DNA of 20,055 bases. Source: a virus. Shown one piece after another: positions 3,056 to 20,055 of the stretch. Below the pieces are notes generated by a model that was not told where the DNA came from, ran no database searches, and saw only the letters and a list, made by a program, of their open reading frames with translations. The stretch is from IMG/VR virus record IMGVR_UViG_3300025769_014293, positions 1 to 20,055 of that record. One strand, 5' to 3'. Made by a program: the position numbers and the translations under genes. Position 1 is the first letter of the stretch. Every line of letters starts with the position of its first letter.

Positions 3056-3513
3056 GCCAAGGTATTTATGCAGCGCTCGATTATCTTGAGGGGCAGATTG
3101 AAGCCACCCTCCCTAAGACAGACGCTCATCATGGCTTTGTGAGCATTAACAGCTCAGGGCGTGTGGGTCCACTTGAGGCTCACCAAAACACCACGCGCTA
3201 CTTTGAATTCAGACTTGAGCGCTATGGGGTGGATGATGGTGAGGCTGGTATCAGTGGGAGGCGGCGCGCCACTGTCAACCTGAGGGTCCGCTATGATATA
3301 GGGGAGCTCCACTTTATGGAGCGGATGATGGCTGAGGATGCCGCCGCGCTCCTTGTCACTCTCAAAGGCCCTCAATATAATCTCAGCTCCACAGGGATTG
3401 TGTCTGTTATCCCTGGTGAGCCCACCACAGAGCCAATCCTTGACCCTACTTCTGAGGTCATGGCCTTGGTCTTGACCTTCCCCTTTGACCTGCTTTATTT
3501 GGAGGCGCTATGA
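3052..3513 (+). CDS. Tail terminator-like protein
   Basis: 153 aa; overlaps the upstream gene by ATGA behind AGAGGGCGCTC. The order helix (IYAALDYLEGQIEATLP), strands (TTRYFEFRLE, RRATVNLRVRYDI), helix (HFMERMMAEDAAALLVTL), strands (ATG near residue 110 to the C-terminal VMALVLTFPFDLLY) fits the alpha/beta fold of lambda gpU-type tail terminators. Its location, one gene after the tail-completion candidate and directly before the tail tube gene, is the standard place for a terminator, which caps the tail tube and joins it to the head. No diagnostic residue motif exists for this family, so the call is based on length, fold pattern and synteny. Confidence 0.6.
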   Translation: MSQGIYAALDYLEGQIEATLPKTDAHHGFVSINSSGRVGPLEAHQNTTRYFEFRLERYGVDDGEAGISGRRRATVNLRVRYDIGELHFMERMMAEDAAALLVTLKGPQYNLSSTGIVSVIPGEPTTEPILDPTSEVMALVLTFPFDLLYLEAL

Positions 3514-4811
3514 GCGTGACCCACAGAAGTTTAAGCGTGGCTGTTGAGAGCTCCTTTGGCTCACTCAGCTCATCCACAGGCCTCCCTGATAACAGCGGCC
3601 TTTCATTCATCTCCATCCCATGTGAGCGTGATCCAATCATCATCTATGGTGACCCTGTGGTCAGCGAGCGCAACGACGCTCGTGATGGGACTTACTCGCT
3701 CCCCCCTGAGCCTGACACTGTGTGGAGTGGTGGCTCACGAGTGAGGCGGCGCACGGGCCAAGTGGTCATGAGGCTCGACCTCACCACTGTGGGCAGCTCC
3801 ATCAACAGCTATGGTGCGAACTATCTTGGCCACCTGCTGGGCGGTGGCTTCAAGGCGGCAGCCATCACAACAGGGTCAGATGCCATCACAGCCATCACCG
3901 ATGTCAACACCTTCACGCCCACCACAGCCGCAAATTACATCAGTGGTGGCCTGGTGGGTGTGGATATCAATGGCCGCGCTGAGTATAGCGCTGTGACTGA
4001 CAATGATGTGACAGGTGATGTGACTGTGAGCCCTGCTTTTAGCTCAGGCTTCACAGGGACACCCACAGCGCGGCTCTTGGCCAACTGGTACGCGCCACAG
4101 CGTAAGGATGAGCTCGGGACCACTGAGCATAGCCTCAGCTTCAGGGTGGATGGGGTCAACTTCCGCTCTTATGCGTATGGCTGCCGACTTGAGACAATGC
4201 AGCTCAGCCTTGATAATGGGCGGGTGATGGCTGATCTGACTTACCAGGCGGCGCTCATTCAAGATGACCACGGCGCAGCTGTGGGGCCAATTGAGCCTAC
4301 TTATAACTCAGGAGCTCCATGCTTCTTCCGTGGCTCCTATGCTGTCATCTCAAGCGCCTCACCCACCTCCCTCACAGATGCCTCTACAGGTGACACCCTA
4401 GGTCGCATCTCTCTTGAGGTGGATGACTTCACTTTGACTGTCACCAACACCCTCACACCAAAGGGTCACTCTAACAGCATCCTGGCCATGAGTGACATGG
4501 AGGTGACTGACGTGGATGTGGAGCTCACGCTCACCCTCAGCACAGTCAACACCGCGATCAATAGCGATTTCTTCAACCGCACCCTGAGACAGGTGTTGAT
4601 TGGCTTTGGCCCATTGGCGGCTGGTGATGGTGGGGCCTTCCAAATTCCTGCGGCTTATCTTACAGTGGACCCCTCCAAATATGATCCAAGCGGGAATGAC
4701 ATCGTCAGGCAGCAGCTCACCTATAAGGCCTCACGCTTTGGCGGTGACATTGATGATGGCTCTTATTATGCTTGGAACACCCCCTTCAGGCTTGCACTAG
4801 GCAAAGGCTAA
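3510..4811 (+). CDS. Major tail tube protein
   Basis: 433 aa; ATGA overlap with the terminator-like gene behind GGAGGCG. The protein is almost entirely beta-strand, rich in Thr, Ser, Gly and Asp. It begins with VAVESSFGS, a pattern typical of tail tube proteins ('a.E.tfGt'), and carries a central RLETMQLSLDNGRVMADLTY segment (about 222-241) that resembles the 'v..l.ls...g....t.t' core strand pair of tube proteins. At 433 residues it is longer than the usual 150-300, so one or more inserted surface domains are likely, for example around residues 112-190. It polymerises into the tail tube. Position before the assembly chaperone and tape measure genes makes the assignment firm. Confidence 0.82.
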   Translation: MSVTHRSLSVAVESSFGSLSSSTGLPDNSGLSFISIPCERDPIIIYGDPVVSERNDARDGTYSLPPEPDTVWSGGSRVRRRTGQVVMRLDLTTVGSSINSYGANYLGHLLGGGFKAAAITTGSDAITAITDVNTFTPTTAANYISGGLVGVDINGRAEYSAVTDNDVTGDVTVSPAFSSGFTGTPTARLLANWYAPQRKDELGTTEHSLSFRVDGVNFRSYAYGCRLETMQLSLDNGRVMADLTYQAALIQDDHGAAVGPIEPTYNSGAPCFFRGSYAVISSASPTSLTDASTGDTLGRISLEVDDFTLTVTNTLTPKGHSNSILAMSDMEVTDVDVELTLTLSTVNTAINSDFFNRTLRQVLIGFGPLAAGDGGAFQIPAAYLTVDPSKYDPSGNDIVRQQLTYKASRFGGDIDDGSYYAWNTPFRLALGKG

Positions 4812-4814
4812 CCC

Positions 4815-5321
4815 ATGGCAATCTCATTCCTACCTGACGCTGACCTCACTCTTGACGTGGTGGTGACCTGTGATCCTGCTGTGGTGGCCACACCTGAGCA
4901 GGTGAGCGCATACATGGCGAGCGGTGAACCTTCAGATTTAGGGGGGATTGAGGGAGCCACAGTATTCACTTTGAAGGCGCTCTCACCTAGCGATAGGGAG
5001 ACAGCTGAGGTGAAGGCGGGCGCCTACACTCGCTCAGAGCTTGGCCGCCTTTTGTGGCTTGAGGCCCCTGATGATGAGCGGGTTAAAGCGCGCTGGCATC
5101 ATGAGCTAGCTGATGATGAGCGTGAGGCGCTCGCTTCTTATCAAGGCTACCTCAACAGGGTATTTGTGGAGATGGTACGAGTGGCGCTCATCAGCATTGA
5201 TGGTGAGCCAGCTGAGGGGAGGCTTGACCTCATCAAGCCTGAGGCTCACAGGCTTCAGGTCATCTCTGAGCTCGTGACCCATATTCAGCGAATGAGTCTA
5301 TTGGGTCAGCGGGGAAAATAG
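4815..5321 (+). CDS. Tail assembly chaperone, short form (lambda G-like)
   Basis: 168 aa; ATG preceded by AAAGG with 7 bases spacing. Acidic and helical after residue ~55 (LSPSDRETAEVKAGAYTRSE, DDEREALASYQGYLNRVFVE). In siphoviruses the gene between tail tube and tape measure makes a chaperone that binds the tape measure protein and guides tube assembly. The reading frame ends at TAG right after the slippery heptamer GGGAAAA, exactly as in lambda G, and the -1 frame is open for a further 141 codons up to the tape measure start. Sequence conservation of this family is low, so the call depends on position plus the frameshift architecture. Confidence 0.8.
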   Translation: MAISFLPDADLTLDVVVTCDPAVVATPEQVSAYMASGEPSDLGGIEGATVFTLKALSPSDRETAEVKAGAYTRSELGRLLWLEAPDDERVKARWHHELADDEREALASYQGYLNRVFVEMVRVALISIDGEPAEGRLDLIKPEAHRLQVISELVTHIQRMSLLGQRGK

Positions 5322-5743
5322 CCTTAGCCTCCTCTGTGTGGCTCGCCCACAGTGGAGGCAGAGGATGGAGCTGTGATCAGTGCAGGGCTCGCCCTGAGCT
5401 CAGGAGGCAGCGGGGCAACTGTGGAGGGCCATTCAGGGCAGGGCTTCCCCTCGCTCAGCGTGATGAGCATGGCTTGTTTATCCCTGGTTATAGGGTGGCT
5501 CCCAATTGTGGCCAGGGGTTCTCTGACCTTCAGGTCAGGAGTTGCCCTGTGGCTGATCAGAACCGAATGGCCTCAATCATTGAGGCTTATCATAGGCATA
5601 GGCAAGGGCTCAGCTCTTTAGCTGCTAGCTATCCGAGGCCCACCTGTGCAATTATAGAAGCGCTTGATGTGCTACATCACAACACTGAAGAGATGATGTT
5701 AAGGCAGCGTGAGCAAGCCCTACAGGAGGCCCACCATGGCTGA
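4815..5743 (+). CDS. Tail assembly chaperone, long frameshifted form (lambda GT-like)
   Basis: Product of a -1 ribosomal frameshift: codons 4815-5318, then reading resumes with base 5318 used twice (ATA GCC TTA...) to the TGA at 5741-5743, giving 309 aa. The extension is rich in cysteine: C187 and C190 (CxxC), C203, C232, C244 and C278. It contains SCPVADQNRMASIIEAYHRH followed by a predicted helix near the C-terminus (IIEALDVLHHNTEEMM); the 'CPv......i..y....G' pattern is one I associate with T-type extensions of other siphophage chaperones. There is no good independent start for this frame: the ATG/GTG codons after 5318 lack a convincing ribosome binding site. By analogy with lambda, the T part should recruit tail tube subunits to the tape measure. 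Confidence 0.75.
5312..5359 (+). promoter_or_regulatory. -1 programmed ribosomal frameshift signal
   Basis: Slippery heptamer GGGAAAA at 5312-5318 lies in the zero frame as G GGA AAA, directly followed by TAG. After an 8-base spacer a stem-loop forms: 5327-5338 pairs with 5348-5359 (12 positions with one T-T mismatch at 5333/5353) around a 9-base loop TGGCTCGCC. Slippery site, spacing and stem length match canonical -1 signals; lambda G/T uses GGGAAAG. Confidence 0.82.
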
Positions 5744-7787
5744 GAATGTGATTGAGATTGAGGTCGAGCTCAAAGGTCAAAAGGACACCCTCAAAGGTAT
5801 TGACAAGGTAAAGGAGGGGGCTGAGGGGATAGGTGAAACCTTCAAGGGTGTTGGTGATCTAGTAGGTAAGACAAATCAACAAATGGGTGAAAGTTTAGGC
5901 GCTGTCTCAGACGCGGTGGGTTCAAGCGTGACAGCGTTCTCTGAGATGGGCTCAGCCATTAAATCAGTCTCTGCTGGTGGTGCAGGGATCACCGCCTTGC
6001 TTGGCCCCTTAGGGCTGCTCACGACCGCTATAGCGGCGGGTGTTGAGGCATTTAGACAGCTGAGCGGAGCCGCCAAAGAGGCAGAGAATCGACAAGCGGC
6101 CTTTGCAGCTGCAGCTGGTGACCTGACTTCGAAGCTTGAGGCCTTAGCGGAGAAGGGGTTTGTACCTGCTCGCCGTGAATTGCTCGCCTATAGCAGGGCC
6201 AATATTCAAGCACAGATACAAAAAGAGCTCTTAAATGCTGAGATCGAAAAGATCTCAAAGACCCTGCAAGCTGAGGCAGATGCCCAGGCACAAGCCACCA
6301 AGGCTCAACAGGATTATAACGCAGCCTTACAAGCGCAATATAAAGACGCTCGCCTTGTCCGTTATGCATCCGTTGAACTAAGACAAGCACAAGACCAGCT
6401 GAAGCAAGCACAGGAGGCCTCCGCCAAGGCGTTTGAGACGATTGGGCAAAGAGTTGAGGAGGTCAACAGGCGCATCTCAGGAGCTGCGGATACTTACAAA
6501 GAGTTTGAGGAGCAGAGCAAAGAGGCGCTTGAGACTAAGGCTAAGGAGTTGATTGCTCAAAGGGCGGCTCTACAGGCGCTTGAGGCTCAGGTCAAGATTG
6601 AAGGAGAGGCTGCTCGACTCACAGCTGAGAGGAATATTGAGAGGCAAAAGACAGCCGATTTATTGAGGCTTGAATCAATGTCACGTGATCAGCTGTCAGC
6701 CTTTGTCACTCAACAGAAAGAGGCGATCAAGTTACTTAATGAAGAGGGATTAAAAGATGCTCAGCTTGCAAAGAAAATCATCGAGTTAAACCAAGCAAAG
6801 ACAAAGGCTAGACAGGGTGAAGCTAAGGCGATTGATCAACAGAAGCTAGCTCAGCAAGCGCTGAGGGAAGAGCAGTTGCGTCTTGTACAAGAGAGTCAGA
6901 TCAGACAGCTTGACATCAAGTTGACCAAGGAGGGGGATGAGGAGCTCTTAGCCTTAGCGCGTGAGCGCTATGAGACAGGGCTTGAGCTCGCCAAAGATGA
7001 CGCGATGAAGCGCGCTATCGTGCTTAAGCAATACCAGCTTGAGGTCAAGACAATCATGGACCAAGCTAAGGCCACCGAGACAGCTAGGCTTCAGAAGATG
7101 GATGATGAGCGCCATGAGCGCCGCCGCCGCCAATTGGATGAGGAGAGAGAGCGCGCTCAACAATTGCTAGCAGATCAGAAGGAGATGGTCAGCAGCTTTG
7201 AGGCCTTTGCAAAGGGCATCACCAAGACCACAGCGGCGGAGCTCCAAGCCACAGCGACCGCCTTAGGTCAAGTGATTGATGATTATGGGCGGGGCTTCGC
7301 TGAGGCGGGTGTAGAGGCGGCCATGTTTGGTGATGTGGCGGGGAAGAGCTTCAAGGAGGCCACAGGTGAGCTCCTCAAGTCTCTGGCCATTGAAGCAGGG
7401 GTCAAGGCCCTCATGACAGGAGCTGAGGCGCTCGCCATGCTCTTCATTAACCCAGCTCAGGCGGGCTCACTCTTCGCCGCTTCAGGGGCTTATGCCGCCA
7501 CAGCGGCAGCTGCTAGGGCAGGGGCGGGGGCCTTGGGTGTGAGCGGTGGAGCGAGCACAGGGGGCGGTGGGACAACCGCCTCACCTTCAGGAGCTCCTCA
7601 GGTGGCCTCGACTCCACAGCGCGCTACAGCTGACACTCAGGCCACAGTGGTAAATATTAATTTTGGAGGGGCTGTGATATATGACACTCAGGAGGCAGCA
7701 CGCCGCGCCATGGTGAATGATATCGTCAGAACGTACAATCAAAACCCTAGGGGGATGGCCCGCTTTAATCAGCAGAGGATGAGGTGA
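5736..7787 (+). CDS. Tail tape measure protein
   Basis: 683 aa with start chosen at ATG 5736, which has AGGAGG at 5724-5729 and 6 bases spacing; it overlaps the chaperone T frame by 8 bases. An upstream in-frame GTG at 5709 lacks such a site. Layout: amphipathic N-terminus; Gly/Ala hydrophobic segment at about 82-105 (ALLGPLGLLTTAIAAG); a long Gln/Lys/Glu/Ala-rich coiled coil about 110-510; a second hydrophobic Ala/Gly region about 565-603; a Gly/Ser/Thr linker; and a basic C-terminal 45 residues (VVNINFGG ... NQQRMR). It sets tail length and is released during DNA ejection. At about 1.5 angstrom per residue the tail would be near 100 nm (family rule of thumb, not measured). No peptidase or lysozyme domain is visible. 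Confidence 0.9.
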   Translation: MAENVIEIEVELKGQKDTLKGIDKVKEGAEGIGETFKGVGDLVGKTNQQMGESLGAVSDAVGSSVTAFSEMGSAIKSVSAGGAGITALLGPLGLLTTAIAAGVEAFRQLSGAAKEAENRQAAFAAAAGDLTSKLEALAEKGFVPARRELLAYSRANIQAQIQKELLNAEIEKISKTLQAEADAQAQATKAQQDYNAALQAQYKDARLVRYASVELRQAQDQLKQAQEASAKAFETIGQRVEEVNRRISGAADTYKEFEEQSKEALETKAKELIAQRAALQALEAQVKIEGEAARLTAERNIERQKTADLLRLESMSRDQLSAFVTQQKEAIKLLNEEGLKDAQLAKKIIELNQAKTKARQGEAKAIDQQKLAQQALREEQLRLVQESQIRQLDIKLTKEGDEELLALARERYETGLELAKDDAMKRAIVLKQYQLEVKTIMDQAKATETARLQKMDDERHERRRRQLDEERERAQQLLADQKEMVSSFEAFAKGITKTTAAELQATATALGQVIDDYGRGFAEAGVEAAMFGDVAGKSFKEATGELLKSLAIEAGVKALMTGAEALAMLFINPAQAGSLFAASGAYAATAAAARAGAGALGVSGGASTGGGGTTASPSGAPQVASTPQRATADTQATVVNINFGGAVIYDTQEAARRAMVNDIVRTYNQNPRGMARFNQQRMR

Positions 7788-13808: not shown

Positions 13809-14522
13809 ATGAGTAAGACCAAAGCCCATCTTGAAGCAGAAAATAAAGAGCTCAGGCTCATGTTGGCTGACCTTAAGGAGAGCCATGGTCATGAGATCAG
13901 GAGGCTTCATCGAGCTATCTCACAAATGGGCTTAGACCTGAAGGCGCTCGAAGTAGAGACACGCCCACAGCGTACAGTGTACGCTTCACCACAGAGCAGA
14001 GAAGCCCTTGACCGAGCTCAGGCTGAGTGGGAGCGCAACGTCACAGAGCCTGAGTATGGTGGAGACTGGCAAAGGATCAATTCATACATCAAGAGCTCTG
14101 AGGGGCTAGGGTGGAGCTGGGAGGCTGACTACACTCAGAATGGTCAATTTAGTTGGTGTGGAGCGTTCGCCGCCTTTGCTTATGGGCGCTCAGTGCTCCC
14201 ATCCATTCGCTCAAAGATCTTCCCTAGCTGCTATAGGATGTGGAGCTCATGGGGGAAGACCTCACGCTGTAGGGATGGAGAGCAGCCACAGCCTGGTGAT
14301 ATTGTCACAGTATTCACCTCAGAGGATCGCTCACCCGTGCAGGGGAATCACATTGTCTTAGTGGCGTCAGCTCCTGATGATATGGGGCTGTTTGATACAA
14401 TCGAGGGGAACGCACATGGGGAGGGGCCTGAGGGCAGGATTGAGGGCGTTATCAAGCGTCAGCGCTCAATGGATAGCGTGGCCCACATCTACCGCTTACT
14501 CACAGAAGATTTCGAGGACTAA
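13809..14522 (+). CDS. CHAP-like cysteine peptidase/amidase (endolysin or tail-associated hydrolase)
   Basis: 237 aa; ATG directly follows the hub stop. Residues 1-50 form a charged coiled coil (LEAENKELRLMLADLKE ...). Residues ~85-235 form a papain-like peptidoglycan hydrolase domain: catalytic Cys117 in FSWCGAFAAFAYG, His181 in GNHIVLVAS, and a likely third residue Asn201 in TIEGNAHGEG. QPGDIVTVF (161-169) matches the 'pGDiv.f' turn before the catalytic His of CHAP domains. No signal peptide or cell-wall repeat is visible. Activity would be cleavage of peptide or amide bonds in peptidoglycan. The location between the hub and fibre genes leaves open whether it is the lysis enzyme, or rides in the tail tip and acts at infection. 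Confidence 0.75.
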   Translation: MSKTKAHLEAENKELRLMLADLKESHGHEIRRLHRAISQMGLDLKALEVETRPQRTVYASPQSREALDRAQAEWERNVTEPEYGGDWQRINSYIKSSEGLGWSWEADYTQNGQFSWCGAFAAFAYGRSVLPSIRSKIFPSCYRMWSSWGKTSRCRDGEQPQPGDIVTVFTSEDRSPVQGNHIVLVASAPDDMGLFDTIEGNAHGEGPEGRIEGVIKRQRSMDSVAHIYRLLTEDFED

Positions 14523-14907: not shown

Positions 14908-16641
14908 ATGTCAGTCTTATTCCTCCCACCTCCTTCAGCCTCCTCAATCCCTGACGCATCTGAGACAGTGAAGGGAAAGATCAGGATTGCCACCTCAGCT
15001 GAGGCTACCACAGGCAGCGATGACCTGACAGCGATGACACCCGCCAAGGTCAAGAGCGTGGTGGATGCCGCCGTGGTGGGTGGCGTTGAATATAAGGGCA
15101 CTTTTGACGCAGCTGCGCCCGCTGATCTCAGCAACGCAGAGCAGGGTGACCTGTATATCATCAGCGGTGCAGGGACCTATCAGGGTCAGGTGTGGGCTGT
15201 GGGTGATCACCTCCTCATCAATGCAGATATGGGTGGCACCCTTGACTCCGCCAAGATCGACAAGGTTGACAACACTGACGCTGTCACATCAGTGGCAGGG
15301 CGCACCGGGGCAGTCACCCTGTCAACCGCTGATATCTCAGGGCTTGCCACGGTGGCGAGCACAGGGGCCTACTCTGACCTGAGTGGGACGCCAAGCCTAG
15401 CAACCGTGGCCACCACAGGGGCCTACTCTGACCTGAGTGGGACGCCCACGCTTGGGACAGCGGCAGCTGAGGACGTGGGAACAAGCGCGGGGAACGTGGT
15501 GCAGCTCGATGGGACCGCTAAGCTCCCAGCTGTGGACGGCTCACAGCTCACCAATCTTCCAAATGGCACGCTGTTTTATAAAACTCAGATCGCGAGTCTC
15601 GGGCCTACGCTATCTCAAATCACTGACAACCGTAGACAGCACTATGATGTGGCCTTGGCCAACCCATCGAACCCAATCACGCTACCTGCTGCCACTAGCG
15701 CGGCAGTTGGTGGTGTCGTCAGTTTCTTTAATAGTGACGGGGTAAACCAAGCAGTAGTCAACAGCCCTACAGCTCGCCTGCTCTCGGGATCCTCTGTGAC
15801 TAGCTTCACCGTGGAGCCTTACGAGGCGCGCTCATTTGTTTGGGTCGGTGCTAGCTCACTTCAAGAGATCACAGCGACCAGGCTTGATCACTTCAATGGT
15901 GTCAGCATCACGAGCCCATCAAATGGTGAGGCGCTGATTTATAACAGCACATCAGGTGCCTGGGAAAACAGCACAGTTAGCGCGACTGTGGCTGCACTTG
16001 ATGACATTGGTGACGTCAATGCACCGACGCCAGCTGACACAAATGTCCTCAAGTATAACAGCACCTCAGGGGATTGGGAGGATGGTGCGGTCGCTGCCTC
16101 TGAGGTGTCAGGGCTCGCCACGGTGGCCACTACGGGGGCCTACTCTGACCTATCAGGCACGCCCACCAACGTCAGCACCTTCACGAATGATGCTGGCTAC
16201 CTGACAGGGATCACAGGTCAGAGTCTCAATGATCTGAGTGATGTGAGCTTTAGTGCTGGGCCAGGTATCGATAACTATGTTCTGACCTATGACGACGCGA
16301 CGAACTCATGGGGAGCTGAGGCAGCTGCAGGGGGTGGTGGCACGGCACCGACCGTCAGCGTGAGCTCACCGAGCACAGACCAAACACTCAGCTCACCTTC
16401 AGCTGGTGTCATCGAGGAGGTCTATGTATACACACCCAGCGTAGACATCACCGTCAATTTAGTAGCAGCTGCCACCTGTGGCAGCGGCTTCAAGTATCAG
16501 ATCAAGAACATGTCAACAAACGTGATCACCATCGACCCAAACAGCTCTGAGACAGTAGATGGCTCTTCGACGTTTTTGCTGAACGCTCAATATGAGAGCG
16601 CGACACTTATCACTGACGGCTCCAACTGGTTTGTGATCTAA
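14908..16641 (+). CDS. Tail fibre protein with internal repeats
   Basis: 577 aa; GGAGCTC ribosome binding site at 14897-14903. N-terminal ~55 residues (ETVKGKIRIATSAEATTGSD, then TAMTPAKVKSVV) match the short tail-fibre repeat 'a....G...lAt..Ea..G.d...a.tP..l'. Next come EYKGTFDAAAPADL with GDLYIISGAGTYQGQ and VTSVAGRTGAVTLSTADISG, both common fibre modules. Three copies of an 18-residue unit (GLATVATTGAYSDLSGTP type) follow, two in tandem and one about 750 bases later, plus repeats of the 'L.D..DV.....VL.Y.....W' type (YNSTSGAWE, YNSTSGDWE). The C-terminal ~95 residues (FKYQIKNMSTNVITIDPNSS, SSTFLLNAQYE, DGSNWFVI) form a beta domain shared by many fibre ends. No chaperone domain is seen. It binds the host surface, probably as a trimer. 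Confidence 0.85.
   Translation: MSVLFLPPPSASSIPDASETVKGKIRIATSAEATTGSDDLTAMTPAKVKSVVDAAVVGGVEYKGTFDAAAPADLSNAEQGDLYIISGAGTYQGQVWAVGDHLLINADMGGTLDSAKIDKVDNTDAVTSVAGRTGAVTLSTADISGLATVASTGAYSDLSGTPSLATVATTGAYSDLSGTPTLGTAAAEDVGTSAGNVVQLDGTAKLPAVDGSQLTNLPNGTLFYKTQIASLGPTLSQITDNRRQHYDVALANPSNPITLPAATSAAVGGVVSFFNSDGVNQAVVNSPTARLLSGSSVTSFTVEPYEARSFVWVGASSLQEITATRLDHFNGVSITSPSNGEALIYNSTSGAWENSTVSATVAALDDIGDVNAPTPADTNVLKYNSTSGDWEDGAVAASEVSGLATVATTGAYSDLSGTPTNVSTFTNDAGYLTGITGQSLNDLSDVSFSAGPGIDNYVLTYDDATNSWGAEAAAGGGGTAPTVSVSSPSTDQTLSSPSAGVIEEVYVYTPSVDITVNLVAAATCGSGFKYQIKNMSTNVITIDPNSSETVDGSSTFLLNAQYESATLITDGSNWFVI
15346..15446 (+). repeat. Tandem fibre repeat, copies 1 and 2
   Basis: Two 47-base near-identical blocks at 15346-15392 and 15400-15446, with a 54-base (18-codon) period, inside the fibre gene. 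Both include CTACTCTGACCTGAGTGGGA and encode TGAYSDLSGTP. The nucleotide identity is high enough to point to recent duplication or recombination. Confidence 0.85.
16117..16163 (+). repeat. Fibre repeat, copy 3
   Basis: A third 47-base copy of the block at 15346-15446, about 700 bases downstream in the same frame. It differs at several positions in its second half (CTATCAGGCAC instead of CTGAGTGGGAC) but encodes the same TGAYSDLSGTP peptide. Confidence 0.8.
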
Positions 16642-18308: not shown

Positions 18309-18653
18309 ATGACACAGCTGCCCAATGACCTCACCCTCTCTCAGGGGCTCATCATTGTCTGTGTGTGGTCTGTGCTCGCCATAGGTGGCGGGGCATGGAT
18401 AGGAGTGTCATGCTCAGCGGTGGACTGTGGCACCTGTGAGGCTGCGCTTGAGGATAGCATTGATGAGCTCCACTCATGCCAGCGGCAGCTCTTGACTAGA
18501 CCCATCTCAGCCTGTGATGATGAGCGCCAAGCTGAGCGCGAACGCTGCCAACAGACGTTGCTAGAATACAAGCGCCTGAGATGCCGCATATGTGAGGCCA
18601 CACATGACACCTATCCTCCTGAGCCTGCTGACAATCCTCACCCCACTCCCTGA
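18309..18653 (+). CDS. Cysteine-rich single-pass membrane protein, lysis-module candidate
   Basis: 114 aa; ATG directly follows the upstream TAA. Membrane segment at about residues 12-34 (GLIIVCVWSVLAIGGGAWIG). Beyond it lie eight cysteines: C35, C40, C43, C57, C69, C80, C92 and C95, with CxxC at each end and 11-12 residue steps between the middle ones, in a helical, charged region. The end is proline-rich (TYPPEPADNPHPTP). If the tail is periplasmic it could form four disulfides. The overlap with the next gene and the proline tail recall spanin pairs, but a classical lipobox is not present (IGVSC is atypical). Function not established. Confidence 0.55.
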   Translation: MTQLPNDLTLSQGLIIVCVWSVLAIGGGAWIGVSCSAVDCGTCEAALEDSIDELHSCQRQLLTRPISACDDERQAERERCQQTLLEYKRLRCRICEATHDTYPPEPADNPHPTP

Positions 18654-19026
18654 GCTGAGTGAGCCGCTGACCCTCTCCACAGGTGAGGTCATCACAGCGC
18701 GCTACCTACAGCCCTCAGATGAGTTTTGTCTCAGGCTTGAAGAGTTCGCCCGGGTGCAGGGTGACCTCATCCACGCTGAAGAGTATTGGGAGGGCAGGAT
18801 TGAGAGGCAGAAGGCCTACTTTGTGGAGGAGTTGACCAAGATGCAAGCGGCTCATAAGGATGTCCACAAGGCATATCTCAAAGAGCAGCAACTCCTGAAG
18901 GACGCAGCTGCTGAGGCATTGGTGGAGCGTGACCGAGCGCGCTCAGATCTGTGGTGGTGGAGGGGGGCCACCATTGGCCTGACGCTCTCTACATCAGTGA
19001 CCATTATCTATCTGATCAGCAGATAG
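18604..19026 (+). CDS. Double-anchored coiled-coil protein, possible spanin
   Basis: 140 aa from ATG 18604 with GAGG at 18594-18597 (6 bases spacing); a GTG at 18592 would add four residues. It overlaps the previous gene by 50 bases in another frame. N-terminus is hydrophobic (MTPILLSLLTILTPLP) and could be a signal peptide; residues ~35-115 are helical and charged (RLEEFARVQGDLIHAEEYWE, KQ-rich part, LKDAAAEALVERDRARSD); C-terminus is a membrane segment preceded by WWWR (ATIGLTLSTSVTIIYLI). N-terminal export signal plus C-terminal anchor with a helical linker is the layout of unimolecular spanins, but no lipobox cysteine is seen. Disruption of the outer membrane at lysis is therefore only a hypothesis. 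Confidence 0.55.
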   Translation: MTPILLSLLTILTPLPELSEPLTLSTGEVITARYLQPSDEFCLRLEEFARVQGDLIHAEEYWEGRIERQKAYFVEELTKMQAAHKDVHKAYLKEQQLLKDAAAEALVERDRARSDLWWWRGATIGLTLSTSVTIIYLISR

Positions 19027-19065: not shown

Positions 19066-20055
19066 GTGCAGAATGATCTGCTAGGCAAGGTGGCTTTCTC
19101 CGCTCAATACGCTCGACCCCTGGTAGGTGGTGGAGGGCGTGAACTGTGGGACCATGCCGTGGCGAGGGTGGAGGCGATGCACCTCAAGCGCTATCCACAG
19201 GTGGCGGGTGAGACAATGCAAGCCTTCAAGCTGGTTAGGCAGCAGAGGGTGTTCCCCTCTCAGCGCTCGACACAGTTTGGAGGGCGGCCCATTGAGCGCA
19301 ACAATATGAGGATTTACAATTGCACCTACTCGCCATGTGACAGGCCACGCTTCTTTTCTGAGGCCTTTTGGCTACTGCTCTCAGGCTGTGGGACAGGCTT
19401 CTCACTCAGGCAGAAGGACATCAAGCGCCTCCCTAGACTCTTGACGCCCTCAGAGATGATCAGGCGTGAGCGCAGGGTCCACATGGTCAGTGACTCCATT
19501 GAGGGGTGGGCTCACGCTGTCCACCTCCTCATCAGCAGCTACCTTCACCGAGGTTATTATGAGGAATATTATGACTATAGGTTTGACTTTCGTCTGATCA
19601 GATCAAAGGGAGCTCCCATCAGCTCAGGGGGCCACGCCCCAGGTCATAAGCCATTAGCCAAGGCGCTTGAGTTGATCGACAAGCTGCTCCATGGCCTGAC
19701 GCTCAACAAGATGCCAAGGCTGCGCTCAATAGACTGCTTTGATCTCATGATGCACCTGTCAGAGGCGGTCCTCTCAGGAGGGGTGAGGCGCTCCGCTTCT
19801 ATTGCCATATTTGATGAGGATGACCACCTCATGATGGAGGCCAAAACAGGAGACTGGTATATTGACCACCCTCAGCGAGCTTACGCCAATATCTCAGCGG
19901 GGCTCAGCATCACTGAGGCTGAGCGCTCAACTGTGGATCACATTGTGGAGATGGCCCGCCAATGGGGTGAGCCTGGTGTGCTATGGCAGGCTAATGAGCA
20001 TCATGGGACCAACCCATGCGCTGAGATTGGTCTGTTTCCCTACCTGATCACAGAC
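19066..20055 (+). CDS. Adenosylcobalamin-dependent (class II) ribonucleoside-triphosphate reductase, N-terminal part
   Basis: 330 aa visible, truncated by the right edge. Start is GTG 19066: an in-frame TGA at 19060 excludes anything earlier, and AAAGGA/GGTGA precede it. Motifs typical of class II monomeric reductases appear in order: YNCTYSP with Cys86 (first redox cysteine), LLSGCGTGFSL (104-114), DSIEGWAHAVHLL (143-155), DFRLIRSKGAPISSGGHAPG (174-193, binds nucleotide), SGGVRRSASIAIFDEDD (237-253), and the active-site loop TNPCAEIGL with Asn316, Cys318 (thiyl radical) and Glu320. The second C-terminal redox cysteine would lie outside the window. It reduces ribonucleotides to deoxyribonucleotides for phage DNA synthesis using vitamin B12 coenzyme, independent of oxygen. 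N-terminus is short, without an ATP-cone domain. Confidence 0.92.
   Translation, partial: MQNDLLGKVAFSAQYARPLVGGGGRELWDHAVARVEAMHLKRYPQVAGETMQAFKLVRQQRVFPSQRSTQFGGRPIERNNMRIYNCTYSPCDRPRFFSEAFWLLLSGCGTGFSLRQKDIKRLPRLLTPSEMIRRERRVHMVSDSIEGWAHAVHLLISSYLHRGYYEEYYDYRFDFRLIRSKGAPISSGGHAPGHKPLAKALELIDKLLHGLTLNKMPRLRSIDCFDLMMHLSEAVLSGGVRRSASIAIFDEDDHLMMEAKTGDWYIDHPQRAYANISAGLSITEAERSTVDHIVEMARQWGEPGVLWQANEHHGTNPCAEIGLFPYLITD

Follow-up and report, generated by a model that had tools for sequence, protein, structure and literature searches.

Comparative analysis of a 20,055-nucleotide stretch of viral DNA (positions 1 to 20,055 of IMG/VR record IMGVR_UViG_3300025769_014293; hereafter, the window) points to a programmed -1 ribosomal frameshift site of the lambda G/GT tail-chaperone type, a reading to which we assign a probability of roughly 93% and in which the slippage itself is deduced from sequence comparison. 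The layout and its conservation are directly observed in many relatives, as are a conserved -1 frame, a downstream hairpin and the near-absence of any other overlap between the two frames.

Layout of the junction

The features discussed below are as follows.

3510-4811, + strand: putative major tail protein gene (433 aa), assigned by position
4815-5321, + strand: G-like zero-frame gene (168 aa), ending Q-R-G-K-stop with TAG at 5319-5321; putative tail assembly chaperone, short form
5312-5318, + strand: slippery heptamer G GGA AAA, in phase; invariant in 85/85 sequences and 117/117 distinct junctions
5319-5321, + strand: zero-frame stop TAG, directly 3' of the heptamer
5319-5326, + strand: 8-nt spacer between heptamer and stem; in relatives, the core stem is anchored at the same distance
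5327-5338, + strand: hairpin 5' arm, with fold-energy excess over synonymous controls and compensatory changes
5348-5359, + strand: hairpin 3' arm, the register of which varies among relatives
5312-5743, + strand: T-like -1 frame, 143 residues from the slip site; C-terminal extension only, conserved in relatives
5736-7787, + strand: putative tail tape measure gene (683 aa), the orthologues of which match PHROG tape measure families

The earlier note on this DNA described a canonical -1 signal, and its individual parts were recovered exactly. The window reads CGG GGA AAA TAG at 5310-5321, and G GGA AAA thus lies in the X XXY YYZ phase expected of programmed -1 frameshifting, with TAG as the next zero-frame codon; the spacer has 8 bases, and the 12-position stem forms 11 of 12 pairs, with a single mismatch at 5333/5353. 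Beyond the heptamer, the -1 frame comprises 141 codons (5318-5740) and ends at a TGA (5741-5743), so that the predicted GT fusion would have 168 + 141 = 309 residues. The ATG of the tape measure gene overlaps the T stop by 8 nt, and its Shine-Dalgarno sequence, AGGAGG, sits inside T. Neither an Rfam scan nor a tRNA scan found anything in the window.

The bare heptamer is not rare in the window, which holds two copies against 0.79 expected; the second (15962-15968) lies inside the 14908-16641 open reading frame and, by arithmetic, is out of slip phase. Chance is ruled out for the first copy because the heptamer is conserved in all 117 distinct junctions, not because it is rare.

Conservation of the heptamer among relatives

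Scans with the G and T proteins and their alignments recovered well over 200 relatives in viral contigs. The two widest scans yielded 233 and 236 relatives, from each of which the best 80 were taken; the G-anchored loci were collected without any use of the junction. Among the best 80 G-anchored loci, GGGAAAA is present in all 79 readable junctions (the eightieth, L280, is unreadable there, since its contig ends one base past the match), and it is present in 80/80 of the best T-anchored loci. When pooled, the two sets contain 117 distinct junction sequences, all with GGGAAAA, as have 85/85 sequences from the first searches, although raw counts of this kind overstate the evidence because the relatives are not independent. 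Relatives that keep the frame and lose the heptamer, which according to the earlier note would have spoken against frameshifting, were sought and none was found among the 79 readable G-anchored junctions or the 85 first-search sequences. The comparison of slippery site and stem that it proposed gave the same picture: heptamer, stem, -1 frame and gene order all hold across the family.

A tblastn search of 50,697 annotated phage records gave no match, and no relative was found in a scan of species-representative genomes. Judging from these searches, the phage family appears to be undescribed and is absent from the annotated phage collection.

The run of G and A at the heptamer (G4A4 in the window) might also be a site of transcriptional slippage, in which mRNAs with an altered number of bases would likewise fuse both frames. 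We consider this very unlikely. No more than four A and three or four G stand in a row, whereas the runs cited for polymerase slippage exceed 7 A or 8 T (PMC3711429), and the conserved phase, spacer and RNA stem point to the ribosome.

The T frame and its start

T is conserved as a protein, with about 62-87% amino acid identity among relatives and differences concentrated at third codon positions (0.275/0.19/0.536 for the three positions). The 141-codon frame had been described as start-less. Its length is as claimed, but at 5336, 15 nt past the TAG, the window contains a GTG in this frame. This raises the possibility that T is a separate gene with its own start, either at this GTG or by coupling to the G stop, and that the heptamer is incidental. 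However, of 57 distinct relatives only 17 have GTG at this Val position, the other 40 having GTT, GTA, GTC or ATC, and in many relatives 29-56 codons of the conserved T frame precede any possible start. A separate start would also leave the invariant heptamer and the stops that bracket it unexplained, and we regard it as very improbable. An open -1 frame that is conserved and has no conserved start codon is what frameshifting predicts.

Within T, cysteines C21, C24, C37 and C78 are invariant in 50 sequences, and C66 and C112 are nearly so, a pattern suggesting that the T extension binds a metal. The structure prediction for the T domain was poor (pLDDT 64) and was not interpreted.

Minimal overlap of the two frames

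In 45 of the 117 distinct junctions (25 of the first 57), a -1-frame TGA immediately precedes the heptamer. With a stop abutting on either side (TGA GGGAAAA TAG), the frames overlap in the heptamer only, that is, in the 7 nt needed for tandem slippage, and the slip site is therefore pinned from sequence alone. Such an arrangement is, on its sequence, the smallest frameshift box (the term is used as in PMC3711429) that tandem -1 slippage allows. In the window, the -1 frame stays open over the 42 nt that precede the heptamer, and the slip site there is thus pinned by homology.

The downstream hairpin

The RNA fold of 5319-5380 has a predicted energy of -27.6 kcal/mol (z = -2.39), a value equalled or bettered by 4 of 200 shuffles. 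All 57 distinct sequences have a predicted stem that begins 5-8 nt past the heptamer. Against synonymous-codon controls, the window just 3' of the heptamer gave a mean z of about -2.4 to -2.47 over the 57 sequences, whereas 18 other G and T windows gave means between -0.71 and +0.11; the excess is thus limited to the post-heptamer window. In the larger run, 43 of the 57 sequences reached p < 0.05 against random synonymous codons.

Relatives share a stem anchor, the G that follows the 8-nt spacer, and the 3' partner arm occurs in several registers (offsets 47, 48, 50 and 53). RNAalifold consensus folding over the whole family returned no consensus hairpin, because the 3' arm changes register between relatives; register-wise counts and the synonymous-codon null therefore replaced it. 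Within two register groups, 94.9% and 89.9% of pair cells hold standard pairs, compared with 38-70% in slid-register controls. Double-change cells numbered 16 and 12 in the two groups, against shuffled means of 1.9 and 3.4 with 0/500 shuffles as high in each, counts that are not to be read as probabilities since the sequences are related. Taken together, these results indicate RNA structure under selection 5-9 nt after the heptamer, which is the known range of distances from heptamer to structure (PMC8211752).

The stop codon at the slip site

The zero-frame stop abuts the heptamer in 110 of the 117 distinct junctions (TAG in 103, TGA in six, TAA in one). In the remaining seven, where the codon is TCG (three) or CAG (four), a stop follows exactly two codons (6 nt) later. 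The loci in which the adjacent stop has been lost and a TAG stands exactly two codons on are L085, L088 and L247 (TCG) and L244, L270, L272 and L278 (CAG). A second stop two codons on is also present in 11 of the 110 junctions with an adjacent stop, and the window itself has a second zero-frame TAG 6 nt beyond the first. On a protein tree of 113 sequences, at least five changes have occurred at the stop position, so that stop-change events are few.

A stop followed by a hairpin is also one of the layouts of readthrough signals, and it is seen here; the TAG could accordingly be read through, or reassigned, to give a longer zero-frame protein. Such an explanation is extremely unlikely. Ribosomes reading through would meet the second TAG in the window, and in relatives they would soon encounter further zero-frame stops, in many cases at +24 or +81, whereas the conserved downstream frame is the -1 frame, not the zero frame. 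As regards reassignment, TAG occurs in frame in none of the window's other listed genes, and three genes are terminated by it, G among them.

What is maintained is where the stop stands and not which stop codon is used, since it may be TAG, TGA or TAA and is found two codons later when lost. TAG costs the -1 frame an ATA isoleucine codon; in the rest of T, 70 of 316 isoleucine codons are ATA, but at the slip site nearly all are. The switch from TAG to TGA or TAA alters the -1-frame residues from I-A to M-M or I-M, yet a stop is retained, which argues that the stop is selected for itself. A specific dependence on RF1, suggested by the prevalence of TAG, was rejected because one clade has TGA or TAA instead.

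Selection on stop position fits the idea that the abutting stop is a working part of the frameshift signal and would modulate slippage, which we put forward tentatively as a reading of somewhat less than even odds; it is also compatible with a plain need to terminate G there. The earlier note had proposed that termination and slippage compete directly at this site, and by analogy with other systems such competition is plausible (PMC4373837). Stops abutting the slip site are known at the Rous sarcoma virus and barley yellow dwarf virus sites, insertion of a stop behind the slippery sequence of HIV reduces frameshifting, and bacterial frameshifting was abolished when the cognate release factor was raised (PMC4373837). 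The one yardstick found for slip-to-stop distance is the mean in the SEA-PHAGES training set, which is 26 nt, compared with 0 nt here (PMC10885494).

Gene neighbourhood and identity of G

The window begins inside a major head protein gene (PHROG 1005, 1.2e-16), and the gene order is head, tail protein, G/T and tape measure. The gene after T encodes 651-787 aa in relatives, and 8 of 10 orthologues tested matched PHROG tape measure families (best 3.6e-10). The gene upstream of G encodes 428-443 aa in relatives, one of which matches a PHROG tail family (7.7e-6). G/T thus lies between the putative tail tube and tape measure genes, the tail tube call being made by position and one weak match.

The G, T and upstream tail proteins of the window gave no PHROG or Pfam match, and sequence similarity to a known chaperone family was not found; similarity among phage tail chaperones is usual but known to be low (PMC5009743). 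G was aligned across 50 sequences, and its AlphaFold model had a pLDDT of 86. The fold matches of the model were weak; named tail assembly chaperones recur among them (best named E 0.026), and against the PDB the HK97 chaperone 2ob9 stands at rank 2 with a non-significant E of 1.3. The frameshift might therefore be real and the protein be a phage structural protein other than a tail chaperone, as the lack of family matches for G and T and the weakness of the fold similarity would allow. Nonetheless, the G/GT position directly before the tape measure gene and the recurrence of tail assembly chaperones among the fold matches, with that of HK97 second, if not significant, in the PDB, make this improbable. 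We regard G as a putative tail chaperone on the basis of position, signal and weak fold similarity rather than family assignment, and because no similarity to a known chaperone family was found it is better said to work like G/GT than to be a proven homologue.

Other parts of the window gave weaker hints. A CHAP domain match at 13809-14522 (5.8e-4, below cutoff) may indicate a peptidoglycan hydrolase, hinting at a bacterial host. Two small open reading frames, 18309-18653 and 18592-19026, overlap in what may be a spanin-like arrangement; the latter encodes a hydrophobic segment at its C-terminal end. The frame 19066-20055 runs off the end and has a weak match (4.4e-4, below cutoff) to PF21995, the B12-dependent ribonucleotide reductase insertion domain.

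Proposed mechanism and its meaning

Most ribosomes would terminate at the G stop, giving the 168-residue putative chaperone. A minority would pause when the hairpin reaches the mRNA entry, and both tRNAs would slip back one base on G GGA AAA, from GGA to GGG for Gly and from AAA to AAA for Lys. Having slipped, these ribosomes would bypass the stop next to the heptamer and extend the chain by the 141 residues of T, yielding the 309-residue GT. Both the occurrence of slippage and its frequency are what we infer here. If the lambda scheme applies, the tape measure protein would be coated by G, and the major tail protein would be recruited through the T part.

On comparative evidence, G/GT-type frameshifting can be placed in a family without a homologue found in the annotated phage collection. 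The family offers a natural series of sites, with an adjacent TAG, TGA or TAA, a stop two codons on and a hairpin in several registers, which could serve for direct tests of release-factor competition at bacterial -1 sites. It also calls for caution in gene calling, as T is invisible or mis-started unless frameshifting is considered.

Comparison with known systems

In lambda, low-level -1 slippage yields G and GT in a fixed ratio, G binding the tape measure protein and T the tail tube protein; frameshifting of this type is spread among long-tailed phages, in certain of which stimulators seem to be absent, as reviewed (PMC5009743). The term lambda-like, applied to the site in the earlier note, holds for the gene arrangement and not for the signal. 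Both systems make a short and a frameshift-extended product just before the tape measure gene, by a -1 slip on a GGGAAA- sequence, but the heptamer here is GGGAAAA rather than GGGAAAG, a conserved hairpin lies downstream, a stop stands at the slip site, and sequence similarity is not detectable. Eukaryotic viral adjacent-stop sites share the X XXY YYZ heptamer, the immediate stop and the downstream RNA structure; those sites make other products, whereas here bacterial ribosomes would make a phage tail protein. The E. coli dnaX -1 frameshift likewise combines a slippery heptamer and a downstream hairpin on bacterial ribosomes, but its heptamer is A AAA AAG, and a Shine-Dalgarno-like element upstream acts as stimulator (PMC3711429); no obvious counterpart of that element was seen here. 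The kind of frameshift is known; new are the family and, within it, the joint occurrence of an invariant heptamer, an adjacent stop whose position is conserved and a hairpin with a moving partner arm.
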